A DNA stretch of 64,000 nt from Lachnospiraceae bacterium MD335 (GTDB lineage Bacteria; Bacillota; Clostridia; Lachnospirales; Lachnospiraceae). The notes beneath the pieces are model-generated. The model made no database searches and was not told the origin of the DNA. It saw nothing but the letters and a program-made list of their open reading frames with translations. The first letter of the stretch is position 1, and each line of letters starts with the position of its first letter. A program made the position numbers and the translations under genes. The stretch lies in contig KE159630.1 of NCBI GenBank assembly GCA_000403335.2, positions 247,172 through 311,171 of the forward strand, given 5' to 3'. This document shows positions 8,765 through 22,130 of this stretch, in pieces.

Positions 8765-10351
8765 ATGGCAAAGAGAGACGATTTTGATTTAGACGATTTG
8801 GATATGGAAATGCTGGATATGAGTGAAGGCGGCGATGAAGTCAAGGATGACGAATATGAGGAGGATAAGGAAAACGACTATGAGGACGTGTGCTTTATCT
8901 GCAGGCGTCCCGAGAGTAAGACGGGCAGAATGTTTAAGCTTCCGAATCATATTTCCGTGTGTTCCGATTGTATGCATAAGACGATGGATACAGTCAGCCA
9001 GTTTGACTATCAGGGCATGTTGAATTATACAAACATGGGTTCTGACAAGGAGAATGACGGAAAAAATAATAAGAGACGTTTTCCGAACATAAGTTTTGTA
9101 AATATCGCCGACCTTCAGGGAGACGGCGGAATTCCCAACCGCCAAAAGCTGAAAAAGAAAAAGACGAAAGAGAAGAACAAGGACGAGGCTGTCTTTAACA
9201 TTCATGATTTGCCCGCGCCGCACAAAATAAAGGCACAGCTTGATGATTTTGTGGTAGGGCAGGATTATGCAAAAAAGGTTATTTCGGTGGCGGTTTATAA
9301 TCACTACAAGCGTGTGAGTACGGGCACAATGGATGATATCGAGATTGAAAAATCCAATATTTTACTGTTAGGTCCCACGGGCTGCGGAAAGACTTATATG
9401 GTAAAGACACTTGCAAGGCTTCTTGATGTGCCTTTGGCGATTGCAGACGCGACATCGCTTACGGAGGCAGGCTATATTGGTGACGACATTGAGTCTGTTG
9501 TTTCCAAGCTTCTTGCTGCCGCAGACAATGACGTAGACCGGGCGGAACAGGGAATTGTCTTTATTGACGAGATTGACAAGATTGCAAAGAAGAAAAACAC
9601 GACTTCACGCGATGTAAGCGGAGAGTCGGTGCAGCAGGGAATGCTCAAGCTTTTGGAGGGAGCAGACGTTGAGGTGCCGGTCGGAGCAAACAGCAAAAAC
9701 GCGATGGTACCGCTTACCACAATCAATACAAGAAATATTTTGTTTATATGCGGCGGGGCGTTTCCGGACCTTGAGGATATTATTAAACAAAGGCTTACGA
9801 AACAGTCCTCCATCGGTTTTAACGCGCAGCTAAAGGACGCGTTTGACAAGGAGGAGAATCTGTTAAAGAAGGTGGCAGTCGAGGACATTAAGAAATTCGG
9901 CATGATACCGGAATTTATCGGACGACTGCCGATTATCTGCCCGATGGACGGGCTGACCGAGGAGAGCTATATAAAAATTTTAAAAGAGCCGAAAAACGCG
10001 ATTTTAAAACAGTATCAGAAGCTTTTGGAGCTTGACGAGGTAAAACTCAACTTTGATGACAGTGCACTGGCTGCGATCGCAAAGAAAGCGCAGGAGCGCG
10101 ATACGGGTGCAAGAGCGCTGCGTGCGATTATCGAGGAATTTATGCTCGATATTATGTATGAAATTCCAAAGGATGATAACATCGGAGAGGTCACAATCAC
10201 GGGGGATTATATTAATGGTACGGGCGGTCCGGTGATTGAGATTCGCACGGAAACGGTTCACGGAAAGACACAAAATGAGCAGATCGAGGAAAAACCGGCA
10301 GCAGAGCCTGAAAAGCCCAAATTGGAGGAGCATAATTTTTATGAATTTTAA
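8765..10351 (+). CDS. clpX: ClpX-type AAA+ unfoldase with extended N- and C-termini
   Basis: ClpX unfolds substrates and feeds them to ClpP. This copy is 528 residues, about 100 longer than usual. It opens with an Asp/Glu-rich segment (2-40), then a four-cysteine zinc finger (CFIC...CSDC), a charged linker, and a complete AAA+ module: Walker A GPTGCGKT, GYIG pore loop, Walker B IVFIDEID, and the IGF loop (SSIGF) that docks on ClpP. A charged tail of about 40 residues follows. ATG at 8765 has GGAGG upstream. No clpP or tig is nearby, so this may be a second ClpX-like gene. The next gene starts inside its 3' end. Confidence 0.88.
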   Translation: MAKRDDFDLDDLDMEMLDMSEGGDEVKDDEYEEDKENDYEDVCFICRRPESKTGRMFKLPNHISVCSDCMHKTMDTVSQFDYQGMLNYTNMGSDKENDGKNNKRRFPNISFVNIADLQGDGGIPNRQKLKKKKTKEKNKDEAVFNIHDLPAPHKIKAQLDDFVVGQDYAKKVISVAVYNHYKRVSTGTMDDIEIEKSNILLLGPTGCGKTYMVKTLARLLDVPLAIADATSLTEAGYIGDDIESVVSKLLAAADNDVDRAEQGIVFIDEIDKIAKKKNTTSRDVSGESVQQGMLKLLEGADVEVPVGANSKNAMVPLTTINTRNILFICGGAFPDLEDIIKQRLTKQSSIGFNAQLKDAFDKEENLLKKVAVEDIKKFGMIPEFIGRLPIICPMDGLTEESYIKILKEPKNAILKQYQKLLELDEVKLNFDDSALAAIAKKAQERDTGARALRAIIEEFMLDIMYEIPKDDNIGEVTITGDYINGTGGPVIEIRTETVHGKTQNEQIEEKPAAEPEKPKLEEHNFYEF

Positions 10352-10988
10352 TCCCAAAAACTACAAATGGTTTGCACGTCCTCCAAAATTCACGAAGCGT
10401 ATGCTTTTTATGATGGGTGGAGTTCTTATGATGGGGTTTGGTCTTTCTATCTTACGTGACATTAATCTCGGCACGGATTCCTGTTCCTGCTTTACGCAGG
10501 GCATCAGCAGCTTCCTGCCGTTTGGCTTCGGCACATGCCTTGTTTTGTTCCATATCGTGACGCTTTGTTTCGTGTTGAAATTGGACATTGGCATGATTGG
10601 ATTCGGGACACTGGGAAATATGCTGTTTTTGGGATACATTTCCGACTTTTTTAAATGGCTGTGGTCCGTGACGCTTCCGGCAGGATTTTTTGAGGGAACA
10701 TTAGTACGATATGTGCTTTTGCTGCCGGCATTGGCGGTTTTTATGGTAGGCGCTGCGGCTTATATGAGTTCGGGACTTGGTGCGTCGCCGTTTGACGCAC
10801 TGCCGTTTATTATTTCGGATCATGTGAAAAGACTTCCGTTTAAGGCGGTGCGTATTTTATGGGATTTGTTTTTTATGATAACGGGCACAATCCTTGGCGG
10901 AGATTTCGGAATTGTGACGCTTTTGTGTGCTTTTTGCTTGGGGCCTGTAATTGCATGGGTGCAGAAAAAGCTGGAGGTATTGATATAA
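10341..10988 (+). CDS. YczE-family integral membrane protein
   Basis: 215 residues with about five membrane helices and the family-typical LGTDSCSCFTQGIS and GLGASPFDALPF segments, as in the uncharacterised YczE/YitT-like group. The ATG at 10341 overlaps the last 11 bases of clpX and is preceded by GGAGGAG, so the two are translationally coupled. Function is unknown; YczE-type proteins are often next to regulators or exporters. An upstream in-frame ATG at 10236 would overlap clpX by over 100 bases and is unlikely. Confidence 0.8.
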   Translation: MNFNPKNYKWFARPPKFTKRMLFMMGGVLMMGFGLSILRDINLGTDSCSCFTQGISSFLPFGFGTCLVLFHIVTLCFVLKLDIGMIGFGTLGNMLFLGYISDFFKWLWSVTLPAGFFEGTLVRYVLLLPALAVFMVGAAAYMSSGLGASPFDALPFIISDHVKRLPFKAVRILWDLFFMITGTILGGDFGIVTLLCAFCLGPVIAWVQKKLEVLI

Positions 10989-10991
10989 TCC

Positions 10992-11822
10992 ATGACAAAA
11001 CTGGAAGAATATTATAATAAATTTAACGAAGAAAAGCGGCTGAACTCGCGGCATGGACAGGTCGAATTCCGCGTTTCGATGAAGTATATACACAAATATC
11101 TTGACAGGGCAGCCGCGAGTCTTGACAATGCGGCTGCTTTTTCCGATATTGGGGATAAAAGGGCAAAGATAAAGGTTTTGGACATCGGCGCGGGCACGGG
11201 GAGATATAGTGTGGCGCTTGCAAATGAGGGATATGACGTGACTGCGGTTGAGTTAGTCAGGTATAACCTCGGGATTTTGAAGCAGAAGGCGAGCACGGTG
11301 CACGCGATGCAGGGAAATGCCATGAATTTAAAAAAGCTAAACGACGAAAGCTTTGACGTGACCCTTTTATTCGGTCCGATGTATCACTTGTTTGGCTTTG
11401 ACGATAAAAGCAAAGCGCTTGGTGAGGCAAAACGCGTGACAAAGAAGGACGGGGTACTTTTGGCGGCATACTGTATGAACGAGTACAGTGTTATCACATA
11501 TGGCTTTAAAGAGCAGCATATTCTTGAATGTATGGAACAGGGACGTTTTACGCAGGACTTTAAAACCATATCGGGTCCTGACGAATTGTATGATTATATG
11601 CGGATAGAGGACATTGACGCATTGAATCAGGCACAGGGGTTAGAGCGCATTGAGATCATATCGCCGGACGGAGCGGCAAATTATATGCGTCCGTTTTTAA
11701 ACCGGCTTTCGGATGAAGAGTTTGAACTGTTTGTACAATATCAGATGGCAGTCTGCGCACGGGCGGATTTACTGGGCGCGGGGGCACACACGGTTGATAT
11801 TTTAAGGAGGAGTGACACATGA
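10992..11822 (+). CDS. Class I SAM-dependent methyltransferase
   Basis: The 276-residue protein shows the Rossmann motif I VLDIGAGTGRYSVALA (around residue 58) and a methyltransf_11-like core with LLFGPMYHLF. Such enzymes move a methyl group from S-adenosylmethionine to a small molecule or macromolecule; the substrate cannot be read. The stop codon overlaps the start of the following TPR gene (ATGA), so the two are translated from one message and may act together. GGAGG lies about 14 bases before the ATG. Confidence 0.85.
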   Translation: MTKLEEYYNKFNEEKRLNSRHGQVEFRVSMKYIHKYLDRAAASLDNAAAFSDIGDKRAKIKVLDIGAGTGRYSVALANEGYDVTAVELVRYNLGILKQKASTVHAMQGNAMNLKKLNDESFDVTLLFGPMYHLFGFDDKSKALGEAKRVTKKDGVLLAAYCMNEYSVITYGFKEQHILECMEQGRFTQDFKTISGPDELYDYMRIEDIDALNQAQGLERIEIISPDGAANYMRPFLNRLSDEEFELFVQYQMAVCARADLLGAGAHTVDILRRSDT

Positions 11823-14800
11823 ACTTGAATCAAGTGATGATGGAGTTAGATAATCTTTTTACACAGGAGCGTATCATTGAGGTGCCGCAGTTTTTGGAGG
11901 AACATATTGCACAGGCACGTGAACAGGGTGCGCAGGATGTGATGCTCACGCTATATAATGAATGTATCGGGTTTTTTAGGGAAACGGGGCAGTATGACAA
12001 ATCAATTGCATATTGCGGCGAAGCGCTTGCTTTGATGGAAGAGATGGGCTTAAACGGGACCATGCCGTACGCGACAACGCTGCTAAACATTGCGAATGCA
12101 CATCGTGCGGCGGGGCATTTGCAGGAATCCCTGGAGTTTTATAACAAAGTGCGCCCGATTTATGTGGCAAGGCTCAAAGAGGATGATATGTACTTTGCAG
12201 GGCTTTACAATAATTTAAGCCTTTTGTATCAGGAGATGGGGGATTTCGGTGCGGCAAAGGAGCAGTTGAAGAATGCGCTTGAGATTGTGAGCCACAAGGA
12301 GAATACAGCGTTTGAGGTGGCTGTGACGCAGGCAAATCTTGCCAATACCTGTATTGAGCTTGGGCAGGATGACGAGGCGAAGGAAAGAGCCGAGGAGGCA
12401 ATCCGCATTTTTGAGGAAATCGGAGTTGATGATGCGCATTACAGTGCAGCGCTGTCGGCGCTTGGAAGCCTTTACTATATGGATAAAGACTATGAAAACG
12501 CGCTTGCGGCAATGGAAAAAAGCAGGGAGTGCGTGGCTAAATATCTTGGTGCGGAGAATATCCAGTATCAACGGCTGAGTGATAACATTGCGATTATCAG
12601 GGAGAAGCTTGGAGAGAAATCCCCGGATGTTTCGGATGAGATTTTGGAAGAGGCTCAGGAACCGGTAGAAGCCGTTATGGAGCAGGAGAAGGAGCAACCT
12701 AAGTCTGCAATGGACGATGAGGAGATTGATCGGATTCTCGGGATTGACATTGATAACGACGGGTGGGCATCCGTAATCAGGGCGGATAAAAAGACGGATG
12801 ACGAAACACAAGAGGGTGAAAAGGAGCATGAGGACGATACGACAGTAAAAGCCGGGGAGGAGAACGAAATGGAGGAAAACTACAGTCCTGCCGACAGTGT
12901 GAGCACCTTTGACATCGGATCGGCATTTGCGGACATCAAAGCGACTGCGGCCCAAAAGCTTCAGGAGCAGTATATTAGTGAGGCGCAGGCGGATGAGATG
13001 TTCGGGAACGGTGAGAACAGCATGGGGGAATCGTATGATGAGGATAAGGCAGTGGATGCTGTGATAGCGGAGGTTATGGACGAGATTGCTGTCGAAGTCG
13101 GGGAGGTATCAGAGACGAAGGAACCGGATTCAGAGGAAGCGGATGCCATGGAAGACGATATATTGGAAGAATTAGAGTTAGACGAAACGAACGACGATTT
13201 GACACCAGATATTTCAGGTTTGGAGCTTTGCCGCAGATATTATGAGGAATATGGAAAGCCCATGATTGCGGAAAAATTTCCGGAATATGAGACACGGATT
13301 GCGGCAGGCTTGGTGGGAAAAGGGTCGGATTGTTTCGGATTTGATGATATGCAGTCGAGAGACCACGATTTTGGACCGCGCTTTTTATTGTGGGTTACAA
13401 AAGATGTGTATGAGCAGATCGGAACGGCGCTCGAGGCAGAGTATGAGAAGCTTCCGGATACGTTTTTGGGTGTAAAACGCATTGAAACCTTTCATGGCAA
13501 GGACCGTGCAGGGGTTATGGTAATAGAGGATTTTTATAAAAATACACTTGGGTTTGATTTAATCGGAACACTTACCAGTGAAAGCAAGGGTTTGACGCAA
13601 ATTAAAAGCTGGCTTGCCGTGCATGACTATGCGCTGGCAGCAGCGACAAACGGTGCGGTTTTCAGAGATGATGAGGGGATCTTTACTTCATATAGAACTC
13701 TGCTTTCAGGGTATTATCCCAAGGCTGTCTGGTACAGAAAGATTGCGCAGGCATGTGCACTGTTTTCACAGAACGGTCAGTACAATTTGGCGCGTATGAG
13801 AAAGCGTGGACAGCTTGTGTCGGCGGAGCTTGCAAAAGCCGAGTGCGTAAAGCAGGCAATGAAGCTTACCTATTTATTAAACAAAAAGTATGCGCCGCAT
13901 GACAAGTGGCTGTTTAAAGCGTTGCCGGACAATCCGGATATGGTGCTTATGCAGGAGGAACTGCAGTCTCAGAACGCATCGGCAGAGAACGTGGCACAGC
14001 TCGTCACAAAGATTAGTCTCACAAGCGCAGACAAAGCGCATGAGACACAGCTTACGACTGCGATCGAATCGCTTGCGGTGATTTTTGCAAATACATTGGA
14101 ACGTTTGAATATAATAGGAAGCTGTGATCTGTATCTCGACGCGAACACGGCAGAACTGATTGCAAAAAGCGACGCGCTTTTGGCGGCGGCGATGGCGGAT
14201 GTCCCGACCATTACGGCACTATCTCTTTCTATTGCAAAGGCAGAATTTGAAGCGTTTGATAAGGTTCAAAATGCAGGCGGAAGAGCAAGCTGTCAAAACA
14301 ACTGGCCGACTTTTAAGGTGATGCGCATGAGCCAGTATATGACGTGGAACGAAGATATGCTGCTGCAGTATTTGTATGAGTTTAAGACAAATTACGCAAA
14401 TGGCAGAAACATGATAGAGGAAAAATACGCGAGGATGATGGCGTCAACGGCGCCTGAAGAGTATGCGCTATTTGCAGACAGGCTTCCCGAGATTTCGAAG
14501 GAAAAGCAGGAAATTATGGAGCAGATTATCGCGTTGCAGGTCAAGTGGATGGAGGAGTTTGCGCAGCAATATCCGAAACTTGCAGGAAATGCCCGCACGA
14601 TACACACAGCCGAGGATTTGCCGTATGATACCTCCTATGAGACCTATTTAAGAGGTGAGCTTGGCACGTATTCTGATAGGCTGATAGAGATGTACGGGCG
14701 ATATGTTGTGGAGTATGCAAAGAGCGGAAAAAGCCTGGCGCGGGAGATAATGGCGAATACAATTAAGTTTTATGGCTATAAGAGTTTTGAGGAAGCGCAG

Positions 14801-14827
14801 CAGAAAGAGATGCCAGGGCAGCAGTAG
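11819..14827 (+). CDS. Three-part protein: TPR array, nucleotidyltransferase-like DUF4037, DUF4125
   Basis: A 1002-residue cytoplasmic protein. Residues 1-270 are tetratricopeptide repeats (several A..LGD/Y..A units). Residues 270-465 are a very acidic, probably disordered linker. From about 470 a DUF4037-type region begins, with GKGSDCFGFDDMQSRDHDFG: a GS followed by spaced acidic residues, as in the nucleotidyltransferase fold. From about 815 the segment NAGGRASCQNNWPTF starts a DUF4125 region to the end. I recall these domain families as uncharacterised; the nucleotidyltransferase reading is inference from the GS/D-x-D pattern. The gene overlaps the upstream methyltransferase by four bases and ends at a strong terminator. 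Confidence 0.75.
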   Translation: MNLNQVMMELDNLFTQERIIEVPQFLEEHIAQAREQGAQDVMLTLYNECIGFFRETGQYDKSIAYCGEALALMEEMGLNGTMPYATTLLNIANAHRAAGHLQESLEFYNKVRPIYVARLKEDDMYFAGLYNNLSLLYQEMGDFGAAKEQLKNALEIVSHKENTAFEVAVTQANLANTCIELGQDDEAKERAEEAIRIFEEIGVDDAHYSAALSALGSLYYMDKDYENALAAMEKSRECVAKYLGAENIQYQRLSDNIAIIREKLGEKSPDVSDEILEEAQEPVEAVMEQEKEQPKSAMDDEEIDRILGIDIDNDGWASVIRADKKTDDETQEGEKEHEDDTTVKAGEENEMEENYSPADSVSTFDIGSAFADIKATAAQKLQEQYISEAQADEMFGNGENSMGESYDEDKAVDAVIAEVMDEIAVEVGEVSETKEPDSEEADAMEDDILEELELDETNDDLTPDISGLELCRRYYEEYGKPMIAEKFPEYETRIAAGLVGKGSDCFGFDDMQSRDHDFGPRFLLWVTKDVYEQIGTALEAEYEKLPDTFLGVKRIETFHGKDRAGVMVIEDFYKNTLGFDLIGTLTSESKGLTQIKSWLAVHDYALAAATNGAVFRDDEGIFTSYRTLLSGYYPKAVWYRKIAQACALFSQNGQYNLARMRKRGQLVSAELAKAECVKQAMKLTYLLNKKYAPHDKWLFKALPDNPDMVLMQEELQSQNASAENVAQLVTKISLTSADKAHETQLTTAIESLAVIFANTLERLNIIGSCDLYLDANTAELIAKSDALLAAAMADVPTITALSLSIAKAEFEAFDKVQNAGGRASCQNNWPTFKVMRMSQYMTWNEDMLLQYLYEFKTNYANGRNMIEEKYARMMASTAPEEYALFADRLPEISKEKQEIMEQIIALQVKWMEEFAQQYPKLAGNARTIHTAEDLPYDTSYETYLRGELGTYSDRLIEMYGRYVVEYAKSGKSLAREIMANTIKFYGYKSFEEAQQKEMPGQQ

Positions 14828-14856
14828 TGTATAAAATCCATAAATAGAGATAAAAT

Positions 14857-14892
14857 AAAAGTGCAACATTTTTCATAAAATGTTGCACTTTT
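14857..14892. terminator. Bidirectional terminator that also fits a recombinase site (site 1)
   Basis: A perfect 16-bp stem (14857-14872 with 14877-14892) around TCAT, with A and T runs at both ends, can end both the TPR gene (+) and the recombinase gene (-). Read differently, it is two 10-bp inverted arms GTGCAACATT (14861-14870) and AATGTTGCAC (14879-14888) around the 8-bp spacer TTTCATAA. The same arm/spacer/arm pattern occurs at 15641-15668 and, more weakly, at 21922-21949. Confidence 0.8.
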
Positions 14893-14967
14893 GTATTATT
14901 TGTTCTTACACTTAATATATCGGAGAAGATTAAAAATACTTTAGCTGTTATTTAAAATTTTTTAAAA

Positions 14968-15552
14968 TTATAAATTTATTTGCATAAATACTGCATCACG
15001 TTCATCTTGTCGGATTCCAAGGTATCTTTGTGTCACACGGAAGGAAGAATGGTTGTAAATTTCCATCAGCATAACGGAATCGGTTCCTGATTTGTAGGCA
15101 AAATAACCGAAGGTTTTGCGCAGCGAATGGCAGCTTATGTGTTCCTCCAAACCGGTCTGTGCAGCAGCTTCCTTAATAATCCGGTATGCCTGCACGCGGC
15201 CGATTGGCTTATTTACTGTTTTTTGACTCGCAAAAATATAGTTACCACGGCAGCACTTTGAAGATGGTAAATGTTCCATAAAACAACGCAATGCGGCTAC
15301 TGCGGCGTTATTGAGCGCAATAACGCTATGCTTTCCTGTTTTCTGTTCATCAAGTTCTAAATGTGATTTGAATCTGTTGGCGGAAAAGTTATATACATCA
15401 GACCATTTTAATGAAAGAATATCACTTATTCGAAGCGCAGTGTTCAAACCGATTACAATTAACAAATAATTTCTGTAATTTTCTTTTTTCAAATAATAAT
15501 TTTTAAATTCTTCTAAAACTTCCTTATCTTTTATTGGTATTGTTGTACTCAT
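14968..15552 (-). CDS. Short tyrosine recombinase (FimB/XerD-like DNA inversion enzyme)
   Basis: A 194-residue site-specific recombinase with all catalytic residues: Arg41 (ALRISDIL), Lys in EQKTGKH (71 or 74), His142-x-x-Arg145 (CHSLRKTF), His168 and nucleophile Tyr177 (RYLGI). It has only a reduced N-terminal region, like FimB/FimE-type invertases that control phase variation and unlike phage integrases with arm-binding domains. Start at 15552 is chosen for AGGAGGATTTT just upstream; a longer frame to 15621 lacks a good ribosome site. It is flanked by matching inverted-arm sites and lies beside a large inverted repeat with two flagellin genes, so inversion of that island is its likely job (inference). 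Confidence 0.9.
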   Translation of the reverse strand: MSTTIPIKDKEVLEEFKNYYLKKENYRNYLLIVIGLNTALRISDILSLKWSDVYNFSANRFKSHLELDEQKTGKHSVIALNNAAVAALRCFMEHLPSSKCCRGNYIFASQKTVNKPIGRVQAYRIIKEAAAQTGLEEHISCHSLRKTFGYFAYKSGTDSVMLMEIYNHSSFRVTQRYLGIRQDERDAVFMQINL

Positions 15553-15640
15553 AAAATCCTCCTTTTTATGCAATTTTGCACTAATTTTTTCAAGCATATC
15601 CAAATTACGGCAGAGGTTCAATGCTTAGTTAACTATAAAA

Positions 15641-15668
15641 ATGCAACATTTTATGAAAAATGTTACAT
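15641..15668. promoter_or_regulatory. Candidate recombinase site 2
   Basis: ATGCAACATT (15641-15650) and AATGTTACAT (15659-15668) are inverted arms with one mismatch around the spacer TTATGAAA. The spacer equals the reverse complement of the spacer in site 1, so sites 1 and 2 are in opposite orientation and bracket the recombinase gene. This is also the outer edge of the left copy of the long inverted repeat. Confidence 0.6.
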
Positions 15669-15746
15669 TAAAACGTTTGTTCTATCATGGCAAGGCGGCA
15701 CGGTACGGCAAGAGCCGGATATTACCGAAAACAAGGAGGTTAAAAC

Positions 15747-15944
15747 ATGCTTCGGTTATCAGTTACGAAAAATGAGTACCTTATGATTGGCAAGGATGTC
15801 AGGCTGACATTTCTCGGGAGCAATGACAGGTCATTAAAGATTATGATTGATGCCCCGAAGGAAATTAACATTGCAAGAGGAAAAGCGATTGAAAAACGTG
15901 CAATGGAACAGGAGATGACGGCTGACAGGGACTGGTTTGACTAG
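15747..15944 (+). CDS. csrA: CsrA RNA-binding translational regulator, left copy
   Basis: 65 residues matching the CsrA family: beta strands with LMIGKDVRLTFLG, then IDAPKEINIARGKAIEKR containing the conserved arginine that contacts RNA. CsrA dimers bind GGA motifs in hairpin loops and block ribosome sites; in Bacillus it represses flagellin translation. AAGGAGG lies 8 bases upstream. Its flagellin gene starts 227 bases downstream with a GGA loop hairpin and a GGA-containing ribosome site in between. The protein is identical to the right copy, pointing to recent duplication or ongoing gene conversion. No fliW, the usual CsrA antagonist, is in the window. Confidence 0.93.
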   Translation: MLRLSVTKNEYLMIGKDVRLTFLGSNDRSLKIMIDAPKEINIARGKAIEKRAMEQEMTADRDWFD

Positions 15945-16096
15945 GCAGTAAAACACAAAAAGGTTAATAAACCGCAGGCGTCCAAAGCCGTGGAAGGCGC
16001 CTATGGCAGAGGGCGGCTGCGGATTATTATATAAGGGTTGTCTTGTATGGGAGAATCCGGTTTACAACTAAATATTGGAACTAAAAACTATGAAAC

Positions 16097-16167
16097 GGGC
16101 AACGGATATGCCCATGACACGCGGGACAGGTTTTTGCAATCCTGACCGCAGATTACACGGAGGTAAT
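16097..16167 (+). promoter_or_regulatory. Candidate CsrA-binding sites in the left flagellin leader
   Basis: GGGCA (16097-16101) pairs with TGCCC (16109-16113), presenting ACGGATA in the loop, an A-x-GGA in a hairpin loop as CsrA prefers. A second ACGGAGG overlaps the flagellin Shine-Dalgarno about 60 bases downstream (near 16157-16163). Two sites, one over the ribosome site, mirror the arrangement known for Bacillus hag. The same elements occur in the right leader (21491-21507 on the opposite strand). Confidence 0.6.
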
Positions 16168-16171
16168 TATT

Positions 16172-17641
16172 ATGGTAGTACAGCACAATTTACAGGCAAT
16201 GAATTCTAACAGAATGTTAGGCATTACACAGGGAAGCTTATCAAAGTCAACAGAGAAATTATCCTCAGGCTATGCAATTAACCGTGCGGCGGATAACGCA
16301 GCAGGACTTGCGATTTCAGAGAAGATGAGAAAGCAGATCAGAGGACTTACACAGGCATCCGCAAACGCTGAGGACGGCATCAGTTCCGTACAGACGGCAG
16401 AAGGCGCTTTGACAGAAGTACATGACATGCTTCAGAGAATGAACGAGCTTGCGGTTCAGGCAGCAAACGGCACGAACTCTGCAGATGACCGTTCATACAT
16501 TCAGGACGAAATTGACCAGATTACACAGGAAATTGACCGTGTAGCTGAGACAACCAAGTTCAATGAGACATACCTGTTGAAAGGCGATATCCTTGGAAAA
16601 AAAGGATATTCGTTCCAGTATAAAATAGGAAAAGCGCAGGCTGCAGCAGTTACCTTTAGTAAGCATGAAGCTACTTCCGCAACTGTTAAGGTCACATTTG
16701 CAACTCCTGATAAGAAAAATAAGGTGTCCGTAAGTGACCAAAACAATCTTGCGAAGGCATTGAGAGACCAAGGCGTTACAGTTTCAGCAAAAACTGTAGT
16801 TAATACAACAGTTGCTGGTGGAAACATAACAACTGCGACAACATCACAGTATGTTTTGGAGTTGAATGGAAGCGATGCTAAGGCAAATTACAAAGTCACT
16901 GAAACTGCTACTAAAGGAACATTTGAAATTCAGGATTTAGATGGAAATAAGATTGCAGAGGTTGTAGTGGGAGGTATCAAATCAGGGAACACTGCCGTTA
17001 TGACAGCAAACAAGGCGGCTGCGGCTTTGAGTACAGATGAAATTTATGAATTCTATGATAAAGATGGTAATGCAATTTCGGAAAATAATCTTAGCAATTA
17101 CTTTACAGTAAACACTGCTGGCAGCGTTATTGCAAAAGCAGATGCTCCGGCAGTATATGACGCACTCGGCAATGAGCTTTCTCTTTCAGACATTGCAACT
17201 AGTTATATTGGGAAGTCTCAGAATCAGACAGCAGCATTAGGCATGAGCTTCCACGTAGGCGCTGACGGAACAGACAACAACAAGATTAACATCAACATTG
17301 ATGCCATGACAGCAAAGAGCCTTGGCGTAAACGGCTTAAAGGTTAGCGGTGAAGACGGATCAAATGCTACAGATGCAATCGATACCATTAGCGCAGCTAT
17401 CAAAAAGGTATCTACACAGCGTTCCGCTCTTGGTGCTGTTCAAAACCGCTTAGAGCACACGATTAAGAACCTGGATAACATTGTTGAGAATACAACATCA
17501 GCTGAATCTGCAATCCGTGATACGGATATGGCTAATGAGATGGTGAAGTACTCAAACAACAATATCCTCTCACAGGCAGGTCAGTCTATGCTTGCACAGG
17601 CGAACCAGTCTAACCAGGGCGTACTTTCAATCTTAGGATAA
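16172..17641 (+). CDS. fliC: Flagellin A
   Basis: The filament subunit, 489 residues. The conserved D0/D1 ends are intact: VVQHNLQAMNSNRMLG at the start with the LSSGYAINRAADNAAGLA core, and AESAIRDTDMANEMV plus LAQANQSNQGVLSILG at the end. The middle (about 140-365) is variable and rich in Thr, Ala, Asn and Val, as expected for the exposed D2/D3 region. ACGGAGGTAATTATT precedes the ATG. It is exported by the flagellar type III system and has no signal peptide. It differs from flagellin B mainly in this central region, which is shorter here. I found no convincing sigma-28 promoter in the leader. Confidence 0.96.
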   Translation: MVVQHNLQAMNSNRMLGITQGSLSKSTEKLSSGYAINRAADNAAGLAISEKMRKQIRGLTQASANAEDGISSVQTAEGALTEVHDMLQRMNELAVQAANGTNSADDRSYIQDEIDQITQEIDRVAETTKFNETYLLKGDILGKKGYSFQYKIGKAQAAAVTFSKHEATSATVKVTFATPDKKNKVSVSDQNNLAKALRDQGVTVSAKTVVNTTVAGGNITTATTSQYVLELNGSDAKANYKVTETATKGTFEIQDLDGNKIAEVVVGGIKSGNTAVMTANKAAAALSTDEIYEFYDKDGNAISENNLSNYFTVNTAGSVIAKADAPAVYDALGNELSLSDIATSYIGKSQNQTAALGMSFHVGADGTDNNKININIDAMTAKSLGVNGLKVSGEDGSNATDAIDTISAAIKKVSTQRSALGAVQNRLEHTIKNLDNIVENTTSAESAIRDTDMANEMVKYSNNNILSQAGQSMLAQANQSNQGVLSILG

Positions 17642-17723
17642 GATTTATCTTGGGATAATTCTCTCTAAGATATGATTTGTTAGAATATTTGCTGATAAAA
17701 CTATCAGAGTGTCAAAACGGAAA

Positions 17724-17763
17724 ACAAAAGACTGCCGTACCATTTGGTGCGGCGGTCTTTTGT
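17724..17763 (+). terminator. Terminator after flagellin A
   Basis: A long stem pairs 17724-17741 with 17746-17763 (ACAAAAGACTGCCGTACC with its near-complement, two mismatches) around a four-base loop. It lies 83 bases after the flagellin stop. The remainder of the gap to 17927 is A/T-rich with a TTGACA at 17812-17817 and TATTAA 17 bases later, a possible weak promoter for the next small gene. Confidence 0.75.
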
Positions 17764-17927
17764 CATATATTTTAATATCATATTTCACTTAAAAATATAT
17801 GTGTAAAATGTTTGACAAATATTATAGCCATCTTTATTAATTTGTAGTATACTAAAGACGGAACGTAACCTGTTTTATAAAATCGGGGATATTAACCATC
17901 ATTATATTGTAGCAGGAGGTGAACATT

Positions 17928-18077
17928 ATGCCGACAAATGCCGAGGTTATTGAAAACTTAGCACGCAAACTTGAACGCGTACGCGTATTAAATGACCTGA
18001 AAGAATGCCAAACATTAGAAGAATACCAGGAACTCACAAAAAAATATGAAGCACTTTGTAATGATGATAGGAATTAA
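17928..18077 (+). CDS. Small protein of 49 residues, unknown function
   Basis: ATG at 17928 follows AGGAGGTGAACATT, a very strong ribosome site, and the frame runs 49 codons to TAA at 18075-18077. The protein is charged and helical (ENLARKLERVRVLNDLKE), without a membrane segment or a motif I know. A clear hairpin follows at 18096-18124. It lies within the flagellin island, downstream of flagellin A, so a flagellar or regulatory role is possible but unproven. Confidence 0.65.
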   Translation: MPTNAEVIENLARKLERVRVLNDLKECQTLEEYQELTKKYEALCNDDRN

Positions 18078-18095
18078 TCATATAACGGAATTTAG

Positions 18096-18124
18096 AGAGG
18101 ATGTCTGTATACATGACATCCTCT
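18096..18124 (+). terminator. Hairpin after the 49-residue gene
   Basis: AGAGGATGTC (18096-18105) pairs perfectly with GACATCCTCT (18115-18124) around a nine-base loop, 18 bases after the stop codon. The run of T after it is poor, so termination efficiency is uncertain. Confidence 0.6.
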
Positions 18125-18166
18125 TGAAGAATAGACATATTGCACAAATTAGTCGGTATTTATTTT

Positions 18167-18301
18167 CTATGTACCGCTCCGTGCTGCACCTATTTTTTCC
18201 ATAATCCCTTTATTAGTTAATTCCTTAATGTTCTTCTTGACTGCCCTTGTCGTCAGACACAATCCTTCAACAATAGCAGCCTGCATTATCCTTGGATTAT
18301 C
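18167..18301 (-). pseudogene. C-terminal winged-helix remnant of a RecG/AlbA-type regulator
   Basis: On the minus strand, after the glycosyltransferase stop, a shifted frame encodes about 45 residues with LTTRAVKKNIKELTNKGIM and EKIGAARSG. This resembles the C-terminal helix-turn-helix of putative DNA-binding proteins with AlbA/ATPase domains. No start-proximal domains are present; the frame upstream is glycosyltransferase sequence. It is most likely a leftover from a rearrangement inside the flagellin island. Identification is from pattern memory and moderately sure. Confidence 0.4.
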
Positions 18302-19379
18302 CATAAGCATCTCCAACCACCTGTGCCCTCTGCCGCAGGCATTCCTCATATTTCCCTTGAAAAAAAGTGCAAAGCTCCTCTTCGCCAAACCTGTGATACA
18401 ACTCCACGATATGGCGGTAGCAGTTTGTAAGCTCGTCGCCGAGCGTCTTGGCGTCAGGCAGCACAGTGGCTTTGACATATTTCATCAGGGCTTTCAGGGG
18501 TTCCTGATTATCCATCAGAACATTGGCATAATAGTAGGCGTACTTAGCGTTCTCGTCGCACTCCGGCTCATAATGCTCCATCAACGCCAGCGCCTTTTGA
18601 CGGTATCCGGCGCAGACATAGGCTTTTGCCAATCCTTCTATCATGTATTGTACATAGGTAAGGGAGCAGGATGGGTTATACGCCAGTCCTTTTTCATAAT
18701 AAAGGATTGCCTTTTCGTACTTTTCAAGTACCAGCTCAGACTGGGCAATTTGAAAACAGATGTAGGGAGTTTCGCCCTGTGTCGCAAGCTGATGATATAA
18801 AAGGATTAAATTTCGCTCCTGTTTCTGCCTCATTTCAGCAGGGGACAGAGCATATCCGTAATGGACAACCTCAATGGGGAGTTGGAAGCATGGCGTTTCT
18901 GCTAATTTCTTGTATGGATTTTTGGGGACAAGCTGTTCGTGTATCGGGTTTTCGAAATGGTAGTATCTGCGGTCATAATGCCGTGGGACATCGTCCGTCG
19001 CGTAAGTCAGCTGTGCGTCTTTCATGACAACAAGATTGTGAATGCGCAGACTGCCCCTGTATTTTGGATAGGAGCTGACACTCGCATTCAGGGCATCCAT
19101 ATCCGCCTGTGTGACGTACTCGTCACAATCAATTGCTAAAATCCAGTTATTCGAGGCTTGGGCAGCACAGAAATTTCTTGCATCACTAAAGCTGTCTGTC
19201 CATGTCATGTCAAGCACCTTATCGGCATACTGCCGTGCAAGCTTTTTTGTCGCATCCGTGGAGCCTGTATCGGCAACAACAAGCTCCATCGGATATGGAC
19301 ACAGCCGTTTCAGACACTCTGCTATGTGTTTTTCTTCATTTTTGGCAATAATACAGACAGAAATCGGAATATTCGTCAT
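18297..19379 (-). CDS. Family 2 glycosyltransferase with TPR tail, candidate flagellin glycosyltransferase
   Basis: 360 residues. The N-terminal GT-A domain has ISVCIIAKNEEKHIAECL, VVADTGSTDATKKLA and the metal-binding AIDCDEYV; the C-terminal half (from about 200) looks like tetratricopeptide repeats (ALAYNPSCS, GYRQKALALMEHY). This SunS-like layout is common in enzymes that glycosylate proteins. It lies directly downstream of flagellin B on the same strand and between the two flagellins, so O-glycosylation of flagellin is the best guess. GAGGAGAACATA precedes the ATG. Donor sugar is unknown. Confidence 0.85.
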   Translation of the reverse strand: MTNIPISVCIIAKNEEKHIAECLKRLCPYPMELVVADTGSTDATKKLARQYADKVLDMTWTDSFSDARNFCAAQASNNWILAIDCDEYVTQADMDALNASVSSYPKYRGSLRIHNLVVMKDAQLTYATDDVPRHYDRRYYHFENPIHEQLVPKNPYKKLAETPCFQLPIEVVHYGYALSPAEMRQKQERNLILLYHQLATQGETPYICFQIAQSELVLEKYEKAILYYEKGLAYNPSCSLTYVQYMIEGLAKAYVCAGYRQKALALMEHYEPECDENAKYAYYYANVLMDNQEPLKALMKYVKATVLPDAKTLGDELTNCYRHIVELYHRFGEEELCTFFQGKYEECLRQRAQVVGDAYG

Positions 19380-19403
19380 TATGTTCTCCTCTATTAAAAT
19401 TTA

Positions 19404-19431
19404 GAGCCGTCGCACATATGTACGACGGCTC
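19404..19431. terminator. Hairpin between flagellin B and the glycosyltransferase
   Basis: GAGCCGTCG (19404-19412) pairs perfectly with CGACGGCTC (19423-19431). On the minus strand it follows flagellin B and precedes the glycosyltransferase start by about 25 bases, with TAAATTTT after it. It may cut expression of the glycosyltransferase relative to the abundant flagellin message. Confidence 0.6.
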
Positions 19432-19492
19432 CTGTGCTTTGTTTTGACACTTTGATAGTCTTACCAACAATGCTTCTAACAGTTTCCGTGCT

Positions 19493-19540
19493 ATCCTACG
19501 AAAATCTTATCCTACGAAAATCTTATCCTACGAAAATCTT
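19493..19540 (-). repeat. Three tandem 16-bp repeats at the flagellin B stop
   Basis: ATCCTACGAAAATCTT occurs three times in a row without interruption, running into the stop codon of flagellin B (read on the minus strand, the stop region GGATAAG is reiterated). Flagellin A has a single comparable stop region. The unit is not a multiple of three and lies after the stop, so the protein is unaffected. Confidence 0.85.
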
Positions 19541-21434
19541 ATCCTAAGATGGAAAGTACGCCCTGATTAGACTGGTTCGCCTGCGCAAGCATTGACTGAC
19601 CTGCCTGTGAAAGGATGTTAGCGTTCGAATACTTCACCATCTCTGTAGCCATATCCGTATCACGGATAGCAGATTCTGCGCTCTGTGTATTCTCAACAAC
19701 GTTGTCTAAGTTCTTGATTGTGTGCTCTAATCTGTTCTGAACGGCGCCAAGAAGTGAACGCTGTCTTGAAACGGTCTCTATCGCATCAGAAATTGCATCA
19801 ATTGCATAGGTTGCAGCCTTTCCTGAATTATCTTTTACATTCAAATTCTTTACGCCAAGTCCTGCTGCGGACATGGTCTTGATGTTAACGCCAATCTTGT
19901 TGGTCATATCGGCATCAGCGCCTACATGGAGTGCAAATGACAATGCGTTGTCAATTTCAACCGTACCCTGCGTAATTTCGAATACACCATCTCCTTTGTG
20001 CTTAACAGACGCATTTACATCTGCGCCTATGCTGGAAGCCACTTGAAGTTCTTCCTTCATCATGCGGTACGCATCCTGCAAAGAGATGTCTGTCTTTTCA
20101 GAAGATGATACATCTATTGCATAATAATTTGTTCCATTTACGTCTACCTGATTCCCCGCCTTAACAAGCTCTGCAATATCATCAGCTGTAAATGCCGAAC
20201 CGTCTAACTTTTTCGTTACGCCTACAGTATATTCGACTGCTGTTGCATTGGAATTTTCCTTTATTTTAACCGTGTCACCCGCAGCTAATTTTTTTATTTC
20301 TTTTTGGAGATCTTCAACAGATACAATTCCTTTATTCTTTCCGCCGTTTTCCGTTGTACTTACGATGGAATTTGTTGCTCCGGTTGCCTTAATTGTATAA
20401 ACGTCGCCTTCTTTTGCTACATAAGCGGCATCTGCGGCTTTGCTTCCCTCAGTCTTATAGAAACCGCTTGTAGCATGGTAAACACCGTCCGGTGAATATG
20501 CATATCCGACACCATTCGCATGAGTTGTGGCATTCTCTACATATGTGTATTCTACACCATCCTCATCAACGATTGTATCTCCTGCCTTCCATGCAGTATA
20601 GCCTGTTACTGTACCTGCTGATAAATCAAGACCATTTTTGCCGACAAGTGTTGTTGTAATACCTAATGATGTTGTATGTGTTGCACCTTCACTTACTGTA
20701 ATCGTAAGGTTATTGCCTTCTGCGTCAACAACCTTAACGCCAGCCGTCGCGCTTACGTCAGTAGACGCTACGCTTACTGTATAAGTAACGCCGTTTTGTA
20801 CAATTTTGTCACCCTTAGCAGCTGCAAAGCCATTCATGGAATTATAAGAATCTGTTCTCTTAGAACCAACGATATTATAATCCGTTCCGCCGATTTTTAC
20901 AGTATCGCCAATCTTTAAAGAATCAGCCGTAAACGTAGACTTTCCGTTCTGACCTGCAACAAGTTTTCCCTTAAGACCTGCATCATGCGCTTCAAGTGTC
21001 TTTGTGCCTTTTGTGCCGTCGCCCTTTAAGAGATAAATTTCATTGAACTTTGTTGTCTCGGCAACACGGTCAATTTCTGTCGTAAGCTGTGAAATCTCAT
21101 CCTGAATATAAGAGCGGTCTGTCTCAGACTGCGTACCGTTTGCTGCCTGATTTGCAAGCTCATTCATTCTCTGAAGCATATCATGAACTTCTGTCAAAGC
21201 GCCTTCTGCTGTCTGTACTGCACTGATGCCGTCCTCAGCGTTTGACGATGCCTGTGTTAAACCTCTGGTTTGTTTTCTCATCTTCTCAGAAATTGCAAGA
21301 CCTGCTGCGTTATCAGCCGCACGATTAATCTGATAGCCTGATGATAACTTCTCTGTAGACTTTGATAAGCTTCCCTGTGTAATGCCCAACATTCTGTTAG
21401 AATTCATTGCCTGTAAATTGTGCTGTACTATCAT
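19539..21434 (-). CDS. fliC: Flagellin B
   Basis: A second filament protein, 631 residues, in the opposite direction to flagellin A. The conserved ends are nearly the same as in A (IVQHNLQAMNSNRMLG; LAQANQSNQGVLSILG), while the middle (about 140-500) is longer and unrelated in detail, rich in Gly, Thr, Ala and Val. ACGGAGGTAAT precedes the ATG. Its leader and preceding csrA are near-copies of those of flagellin A. Whether both are expressed together or alternately cannot be told from sequence; the inverted layout and nearby recombinase suggest alternation. Confidence 0.96.
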   Translation of the reverse strand: MIVQHNLQAMNSNRMLGITQGSLSKSTEKLSSGYQINRAADNAAGLAISEKMRKQTRGLTQASSNAEDGISAVQTAEGALTEVHDMLQRMNELANQAANGTQSETDRSYIQDEISQLTTEIDRVAETTKFNEIYLLKGDGTKGTKTLEAHDAGLKGKLVAGQNGKSTFTADSLKIGDTVKIGGTDYNIVGSKRTDSYNSMNGFAAAKGDKIVQNGVTYTVSVASTDVSATAGVKVVDAEGNNLTITVSEGATHTTSLGITTTLVGKNGLDLSAGTVTGYTAWKAGDTIVDEDGVEYTYVENATTHANGVGYAYSPDGVYHATSGFYKTEGSKAADAAYVAKEGDVYTIKATGATNSIVSTTENGGKNKGIVSVEDLQKEIKKLAAGDTVKIKENSNATAVEYTVGVTKKLDGSAFTADDIAELVKAGNQVDVNGTNYYAIDVSSSEKTDISLQDAYRMMKEELQVASSIGADVNASVKHKGDGVFEITQGTVEIDNALSFALHVGADADMTNKIGVNIKTMSAAGLGVKNLNVKDNSGKAATYAIDAISDAIETVSRQRSLLGAVQNRLEHTIKNLDNVVENTQSAESAIRDTDMATEMVKYSNANILSQAGQSMLAQANQSNQGVLSILG

Positions 21435-21939
21435 AATATTACCTCCGTGTAATCTGCGGTCAGGATTTCAAAACCCGGTCCGCGTGTCATGGGCATATCC
21501 GTTGCCCGTTTCATAGTTTTTAGTTCCAATATTTAGTTGTAAACCGGATTCTCCCATACAAGACAACCCTTATATAATAATCCGCAGCCGCCCTCTGCCA
21601 TAGGCGCCTTCCACAGCTTTAAGCGCCTGCGGTTTATTAACTGTTTTAATCAAACCAGTCCCTGTCAGCCGTCATCTCCTGTTCCATTGCACGTTTTTCA
21701 ATCGCTTTTCCTCTTGCAATGTTAATTTCCTTCGGGGCATCAATCATAATCTTTAATGACCTGTCATTGCTCCCGAGAAATGTCAGCCTGACATCCTTGC
21801 CAATCATAAGGTACTCATTTTTCGTAACTGATAACCGAAGCATGTTTTAACCTCCTTGTTTCCGGTAATATCCGGCTCTTGCCGTACCGTGCCGCCTTGC
21901 CATGATAGAACAAATGTTTTGATATAACATTTTTCATAG
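21266..21939 (-). repeat. Right arm of the long inverted repeat
   Basis: The minus strand here repeats the left arm: site-like sequence, csrA, leader with the GGGCA-ACGGATA-TGCCC hairpin (21491-21507), and the flagellin 5' end. Outside the arm the sequences part company at once: the left flank has the recombinase gene and the right flank has trpS. The inner boundary is approximate. Confidence 0.85.
21646..21843 (-). CDS. csrA: CsrA RNA-binding translational regulator, right copy
   Basis: Encodes the same 65-residue protein as the left csrA, including the APKEINIARG segment with the RNA-contacting arginine. AAGGAGG precedes the ATG. It lies 211 bases upstream of flagellin B. Keeping two identical copies next to two divergent flagellins suggests that each flagellin is carried with its own repressor, or that inversion and conversion keep the arms alike. 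Confidence 0.93.
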   Translation of the reverse strand: MLRLSVTKNEYLMIGKDVRLTFLGSNDRSLKIMIDAPKEINIARGKAIEKRAMEQEMTADRDWFD

Positions 21940-21949
21940 AGTGTATCAT
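21922..21949. promoter_or_regulatory. Candidate recombinase site 3
   Basis: Read on the minus strand: arm ATGATACACT, spacer CTATGAAA, arm AATGTTATAT. The spacer differs from site 2 by one base and the right arm matches in 8 of 10 positions; the left arm is weaker. The site is inverted relative to site 2 (15641-15668), so recombination between them would flip about 6.3 kb. Just outside it, GAACCTAAGAA occurs twice as a direct repeat (minus strand, about 21963-21992). The rest of the gap to trpS is A/T-rich apart from the trpS promoter. Confidence 0.5.
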
Positions 21950-22130
21950 CTTAAATTCGATTCTTAGGTTCAGAAAGTTTCTTAGGTTCATTGCAGTCAT
22001 TGCGGGTCAGCCTGTTTCCAAAAAAGTTATAAACATAAACATTTTTAGCATTTGTTAATTATCACTTCTCAAAATGATAAAATGAAAGCTTCTGGGGAGA
22101 GATATGAGAAAAACGCAAATTACAAGAATA

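Follow-up and report, generated by a model that had tools for sequence, protein, structure and literature searches.

A predicted invertible promoter segment with its own tyrosine recombinase beside a csrA-flagellin unit of Lachnospiraceae bacterium MD335

A stretch of 64,000 nucleotides from Lachnospiraceae bacterium MD335 (contig KE159630.1, positions 247,172 to 311,171; hereafter the window, in whose numbering all coordinates are given) was analyzed for a recombinase gene that lies next to flagellin genes. The genome carrying the window comprises 4.96 Mb in 19 contigs. A gene for a tyrosine recombinase of 194 amino acids (14968..15552, minus strand) is enclosed by two sites in inverted orientation, site 1 (14861..14888, plus strand) and site 2 (15641..15668, minus strand). 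Beyond site 2 lies unit 1, consisting of a csrA gene (15747..15944, plus strand; 65 amino acids, PF02599 at 56 bits) and a gene for a flagellin of 489 amino acids (16172..17641, plus strand; PF00669 and PF00700), the predicted target of the switch. Unit 2 faces it from the other side, with a flagellin of 631 amino acids (19539..21434, minus strand; open reading frame and profile search) and a csrA open reading frame (21646..21843, minus strand) whose protein is identical to that of unit 1. Two such units pointing toward each other, with flagellins of these lengths, had been claimed in a preliminary description of this DNA and are present as claimed. The comparisons given below indicate that the segment between sites 1 and 2 is very probably a self-encoded phase switch of the unit 1 flagellin.

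The recombinase starts at an ATG codon and contains a catalytic domain only. It matched Pfam family PF00589 (Phage_integrase) at 93.6 bits (cut-off 27.1), and the nearest solved chain was XerA 5hxy (E 3e-8). Among 74 aligned relatives, K71, K74, H142, R145, H168 and Y177 were kept in all, while R41 was invariant in the 72 of 72 that have a residue there, one relative with an internal stop being excluded. The intact R-K-HxxR-H-Y catalysis described earlier was thereby borne out. Two DNA-invertase models, NF007371 and NF007370, which we take to be FimE and FimB, respectively, scored far below their curated cut-offs (52.9 bits vs 222 and 47 bits vs 221); judged by these scores, the enzyme is a relative of the two subfamilies and not a member. 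A second relative in the same genome (L087, contig C13, 8982-9542; 42%) adjoins a phage terminase gene and is probably part of a prophage. Three other relatives (L165, L188 and L190) have glycosyltransferase or sugar-nucleotide genes instead of flagellin as neighbors, a site pair being resolved only in L165; this neighborhood suggests that the same type of switch may serve other surface structures.

Sites 1 and 2 form a 34-nt inverted repeat with 91% identity and share an identical, non-palindromic core. Site 1 has the layout arm, spacer and arm (GTGCAACATT/TTTCATAA/AATGTTGCAC), as already described, and differs from site 2 at 3 of 28 positions. When the whole genome was searched with the 26-bp site at up to 3 mismatches, sites 1 and 2 were the sole matches, and the reversed pattern used as a control gave none. 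Measured from center to center, the predicted invertible segment spans 14875..15654 and holds the recombinase gene together with a promoter-like motif.

This motif, TAAA-N16-CCGATATA (14916..14943, minus strand), sits between site 1 and the 3' end of the recombinase gene and points outward through site 1, away from the csrA-flagellin unit. It is a strict match to the pattern of sigma-28 (SigD/FliA) promoters, which we take to be TAAA-N15-16-(G)CCGATAT, and we infer that it is such a promoter; it is kept in relatives. The genome contains 23 strict matches, compared with 5 for the pattern read backward, and two further flagellins encoded there have the same motif upstream, 56 and 113 bp ahead of their matched starts. 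No relaxed match was detected within 300 bp outside sites 1 and 2 in the window, and no strict match near unit 2. On contig C1 of the same genome (377.5-391.7 kb), seven more flagellin matches and a fragment are clustered, at least two of them with a fixed sigma-28-type motif upstream.

Site 1 itself resembles a terminator toward the promoter. On the minus strand it makes a hairpin with a 16-bp stem followed by a T-rich tail, ATTTTATCTC (14847..14892), facing the parked promoter. The terminator scan matched site 1 on both strands and did not match site 2, with 3 matches in the stretch against a mean of 1.2 in shuffled sequence. The hairpin of site 1 folded at -18.8 kcal/mol (z -7.3), and that of site 2 as it stands at -7.3 kcal/mol; the csrA side of site 2 has no T-rich tail. 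Given the hairpin, the tail on the promoter side and the scan match, site 1 probably ends an idle transcript.

Related cassettes were collected in two sets. Within the genus, 24 of 38 genomes had relatives of the recombinase (E up to 1e-15), and across the family 30 of 397 sampled genomes did (E up to 1e-40). They also occurred in 39 of 77 genomes of another genus, and in 2 of 10 and 2 of 16 genomes of two more genera. Set 1 consists of 75 cassettes, namely the 38 strongest of 49 places in the genus, 31 of 32 places in the family and 6 of 7 named loci; the 11 weakest genus places, one family place with less than 44% identity and one named locus repeating another were left out. Set 2 consists of 54 cassettes, of which 51 are new places from another genus and 1 and 2 come from two further genera. 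One cassette is common to both sets (L204 = L010). The relaxed promoter pattern was fixed after set 1 had been viewed, and identical patterns were then applied to set 2. A site pair was resolved in 52 of the 75 and in 39 of the 54 cassettes, and proportions calculated for sites and promoters cover only these resolved cassettes. In set 1, csrA or flagellin lay no more than 1.5 kb away in 59 of the 75. Beside those loci of less than 50% identity that came from the same search as the named loci, mostly from Bacillaceae, flagellin and csrA were searched for and none was found.

The position and direction of the promoter motif were conserved. In set 1, 45 of the 52 cassettes had an outward motif immediately internal to a site, at the 3' end of the recombinase gene in 43 and at the 5' end in 2; an inward match was seen in 1 of 52, and no motif was found up to 300 bp outside either site in any of the 52, the outside stretch being shorter in 5 of them. 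Resampling of 50 of the recombinase 3' regions gave an expectation of 0.36 motifs, against the 43 observed. Set 2 gave outward motifs in 35 of 39 and none outside the sites (0/39). A second architecture was recognized in L167, L183, L186 and L173, where the recombinase gene runs the other way relative to the promoter and csrA but the promoter-like motif keeps its direction away from csrA. In L186 and L167, with the motif at the recombinase 5' end and csrA on the opposite side, the promoter likewise points away; in L183 the promoter-like motif falls outside the pattern, and an internal stop interrupts the recombinase.

The terminator-like character of the site was conserved on the same side. 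After the site hairpin, the mean number of T per 10 nt was 6.8 on the promoter side and 1.7 on the other. A T-rich tail occupied the promoter side in 43 of 45 cassettes of set 1, the exceptions being L100 and L026, whose promoter faces a csrA unit, and in each of the 35 set 2 cassettes with a promoter. The hairpin of the OFF arrangement was more stable than that predicted for ON in 33 of 45 cassettes. Within the site pairs of 45 cassettes, mismatches fell at 70 of 630 positions in the outer arms and at 13 of 630 in the inner arms; if one outer arm acts as a terminator, this may account for some of the excess there, though not for the equality of the inner arms.

The central 6 bp were identical between paired sites in all resolved cassettes (52/52, none palindromic, in set 1 and 39/39 in set 2). 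Of 49 comparisons between cassettes of one genome, 46 showed different cores. Set 1 accounted for 39 of these among its 40 comparisons, with one shared core, and set 2 for 7 among its 9, with two shared cores. Two genomes, G033 and G034, have six resolved cassettes each, some of them in tandem on one contig (L101 and L095). Strand exchange by tyrosine recombinases requires core identity; with differing cores, the cassettes of one genome would therefore be mostly insulated from each other.

Evidence for switching also came from cassettes that carry the segment in the opposite orientation. In L100 (G033) the promoter faces csrA. Compared with its paralogue L099, about 1 kb between the sites is inverted (94%), while the flagellin side is collinear over 2.1 kb (89%) and 62 bp beyond the other side of the segment, site included, are collinear as well. 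Compared with L098 from another species, the segment of L100 is again inverted (84%) and the flagellin side collinear over about 4.6 kb (86-88%); L099 and L098 are collinear with each other over 3.2 kb. In L216 (G503), whose site pair was missed by the finder, the promoter also faces csrA, and relative to L208, L213, L219, L220 and L235 the segment is inverted (about 75-80%) with csrA-flagellin collinear. The locus has inverted sites with a matching asymmetric core and an internal promoter, recognized by its motif, that would face the target in one orientation only, and both orientations occur among related cassettes; these are marks of an inverton. The preliminary description had proposed flagellin switching through DNA inversion by a resident tyrosine recombinase, and this proposal is strongly supported by the comparison with related cassettes. 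It had also mentioned that sites 1 and 2 could flip the recombinase itself. This is the conserved reaction and the one with the best support; its role had been missed because the outward promoter inside site 1 went unnoticed. One further cassette of unusual structure, L090 (G031, 10005-10859), has the recombinase 5' end running straight into the C-terminal part of a flagellin, with no site 2, csrA or flagellin N terminus, and represents either a locked switch or an assembly fault.

Several results weigh against this interpretation. Inversion was seen in the related cassettes L100 and L216 and not in MD335 itself, and the orientations are very unequal. Among the 44 flagellin-linked promoter cassettes of set 1, 42 promoters face away from csrA, 1 faces it (L100) and 1 lies between units (L026); all 35 promoters of set 2 have that direction away from csrA. 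Of the 15 set 2 cassettes without a resolved pair, 8 were inspected by eye and comprised 6 facing away, 1 facing csrA (L216) and 1 without a motif. Altogether 2 cassettes facing csrA and 1 between units stand against 76 distinct cassettes facing away by script and 6 more by eye. The rarity of ON may reflect a prevalence of OFF, or only that assemblers report the majority orientation. A site pair was not resolved in 23 of 75 and 15 of 54 cassettes, of which at least L070 runs into N, and the motif was missing by the pattern used in 7 of 52 (set 1) and 4 of 39 (set 2). The matching cores are partly built in, because the site finder selects pairs for identity, and three of the 39 set 2 pairs (L242, L248 and L252) have no flagellin and look like chance repeats. 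The hairpin predicted for ON was equally stable in 11 of 45 cassettes and more stable in 1 of 45, and the A/T-rich hairpin of the site might be a poor terminator.

With these points considered, the phase switch of unit 1 would work as follows. The recombinase, whose role here we infer from comparison, would cut the asymmetric core of sites 1 and 2 and invert the segment of about 0.78 kb. In the sequenced orientation the promoter would fire through site 1, where the hairpin and T-rich tail would stop the transcript after about 50 nt, leaving unit 1 OFF. After inversion the promoter would fire through site 2, with its weaker hairpin and no T-rich tail, into csrA-flagellin, and unit 1 would be ON. 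Each cassette would switch its own flagellin independently. Recombinase activity, termination, the OFF and ON states and any benefit of switching are predictions. Unit 2 is a duplicate without such a promoter, and it might come under the switch only through a rarer recombination of site 2 with a third site or through homologous recombination.

The third site had been placed by the preliminary description at 21922..21949 (plus strand), and its main proposal was an inversion, by the recombinase, of the 6.3 kb lying between sites 2 and 3, through which the units would swap places beside the recombinase. The central 6 bp of this sequence are as in sites 1 and 2 and one arm is kept, but it is a much weaker site than these two. 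The other arm is degenerate (8/28 mismatches to site 1 and 5/28 to site 2), and the sequence folds no better than shuffles. Moreover, site 3 is the outer edge of an inverted duplication of about 0.95 kb (15638-16587 / 21019-21952), at which the homology of unit 2 with unit 1 stops. It is for this reason not independent evidence of a third site; a kept core and one degraded arm are what would be expected if the unit was duplicated with a site at its edge. The orientation of site 3 is right for an island inversion, which could add to the switch between sites 1 and 2 and, if it occurs, would bring the other flagellin under the same switch. However, no direct support was found for it as the leading reaction, and the facing-unit layout of the window was not seen in any relative when the locus tables were read by eye. 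A relative with the opposite island orientation, as sought by a check suggested with the proposal, was likewise not seen. As the main event the inversion between sites 2 and 3 was rejected on account of the degenerate arm and because duplication accounts for site 3. We did not dismiss it altogether, because an intact third site exists in L026 (Pseudobutyrivibrio sp. ACV-2), and we regard it as rather unlikely in the window. An island inverted without the recombinase, by RecA-type homologous recombination between the inverted duplicates, is a further reading; their arms are long and similar (306 nt at 97%, 178 nt at 95% and 420 nt at 85%), yet the other island orientation is unseen in relatives and the conserved sites and promoter would be left unexplained, which makes this reading improbable.

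In L026, csrA-flagellin flanks the segment on both sides, and hence the promoter faces one unit in either orientation. Its third site (L026:4893-4918) has the same core, with 2/26 mismatches, and lies 5 kb off, beyond the second csrA-flagellin unit. It is followed by a T-rich tail as at site 1 of L014 from Pseudobutyrivibrio sp. OR37 (40 bp at 97.5%). A larger rearrangement through such sites would plausibly explain the layout of L026. Further site-like matches (up to 6/26 mismatches, within 12 kb) were found in 7 of 41 cassettes of loci of at least 7 kb, these being site 3 of the window, L026 and five cassettes of L095 and L101; the extra matches in L095 and L101 are read as sites of neighboring cassettes.

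Two other explanations question the switch between sites 1 and 2 itself. If there were no switching, the two sites would be common terminators, or repeats like those at transposon ends, next to a resident recombinase gene. The terminator scores of site 1 on both strands and the one orientation shared by nearly all assemblies would agree with this, but two homologous segments were found inverted next to collinear csrA-flagellin, and cores that match in every resolved pair nevertheless differ between cassettes of one genome. The reading is scarcely credible, and the sites as plain terminators only were rejected on the two natural inversions. Alternatively, the enzyme may act mainly elsewhere, or another recombinase may switch the cassette in trans. 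The relatives beside glycosyltransferase genes and the 42% relative beside a phage terminase gene are in line with this, as is RecV of C. difficile, described as unlinked to its switches (PMC2784873, PMC5386303). Against it, the catalytic residues are invariant, the site pair closely flanks the recombinase gene in the resolved cassettes of both sets, and no other good copy of the site exists in the genome. We consider it very unlikely, and the self-encoded switch between sites 1 and 2 remains the preferred interpretation.

The predicted switch can be compared with known systems. In Salmonella the hin gene is described as lying inside an inverted segment whose promoter controls flagellin (PMC2784873), and Hin as a serine recombinase using an enhancer (PMC3798978). 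The H switch (fljBA, fliC) and the MD335 cassette have in common a recombinase and a promoter within the segment and a flagellin target, and the two-unit L026 resembles the either/or choice of Salmonella. In contrast to Hin, the cassette has a tyrosine recombinase, a sigma-28-type promoter, one csrA gene per unit and, opposite the parked promoter, a site that resembles a terminator. By its sequence the MD335 cassette would work like Hin and is not a Hin system. The fim switch of E. coli, whose target is fimbriae, also uses small tyrosine recombinases (FimB and FimE) to turn a promoter, but according to PMC2784873 fimB and fimE adjoin the inverted element and are not within it. In C. difficile, inversion by a tyrosine recombinase (RecV) controls flagella or a surface protein, and for cwpV an intrinsic terminator acting in the OFF state was proposed (PMC2784873). 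Unlike the present cassette, however, the recombinase is reported there to be unlinked to cwpV, and PMC5386303 presents the cwpV inversion region as promoterless and the flg switch as acting on the early flgB operon instead of on single flagellins. Bacteroides Mpi likewise provides many switches per genome, with one recombinase serving at least 13 of them through a shared core consensus as summarized in PMC5386303, whereas here each cassette has its own recombinase and usually its own core (3/49 within-genome comparisons share one). A largely Clostridia group of invertons linked to tyrosine recombinases has been reported, the string 'flagell' being missing from the main text (PMC11892184); this group could include such cassettes. 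Searches of openly licensed papers, outside of which lie the main inverton survey and subscription papers, yielded no description of csrA-flagellin cassettes of this kind or of phase variation of Lachnospiraceae flagellins.

Other features of the window were also recorded. A 1002-amino-acid tetratricopeptide repeat (TPR) protein with DUF4037 and DUF4125 (11819-14827) stops just before site 1, and related sequence occupies the same place in L008 and L009 from two other genomes. Between the flagellins lies a gene for a family-2 glycosyltransferase with TPR (18297..19379, minus strand; PF00535 at 60 bits), for which a role in flagellin glycosylation is a guess. A short tandem repeat, CCTACGAAAATCTTAT, in about three copies was noticed by eye beside the end of the unit 2 flagellin gene (19495-19542).

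Whether Lachnospiraceae carry banks of autonomous flagellin switches, each with its own recombinase and sigma-28 promoter within the inverting segment, usually its own core, and a site doubling as a terminator that silences the parked promoter, we regard as evenly balanced. If so, the cassettes would offer small self-contained switches with different cores, and at loci with a third site one switch could be contested by several flagellins. Flagellin expression would be a matter of heritable coin flips that can be read from DNA orientation in long-read or paired-read data, so that associations with host antibodies, phages and motility could be tested directly. Lachnospiraceae flagellins serve as immune antigens, and with six or seven cassettes a genome could vary the composition of its filament combinatorially and so evade antibodies, TLR5 or flagellum-binding phages.

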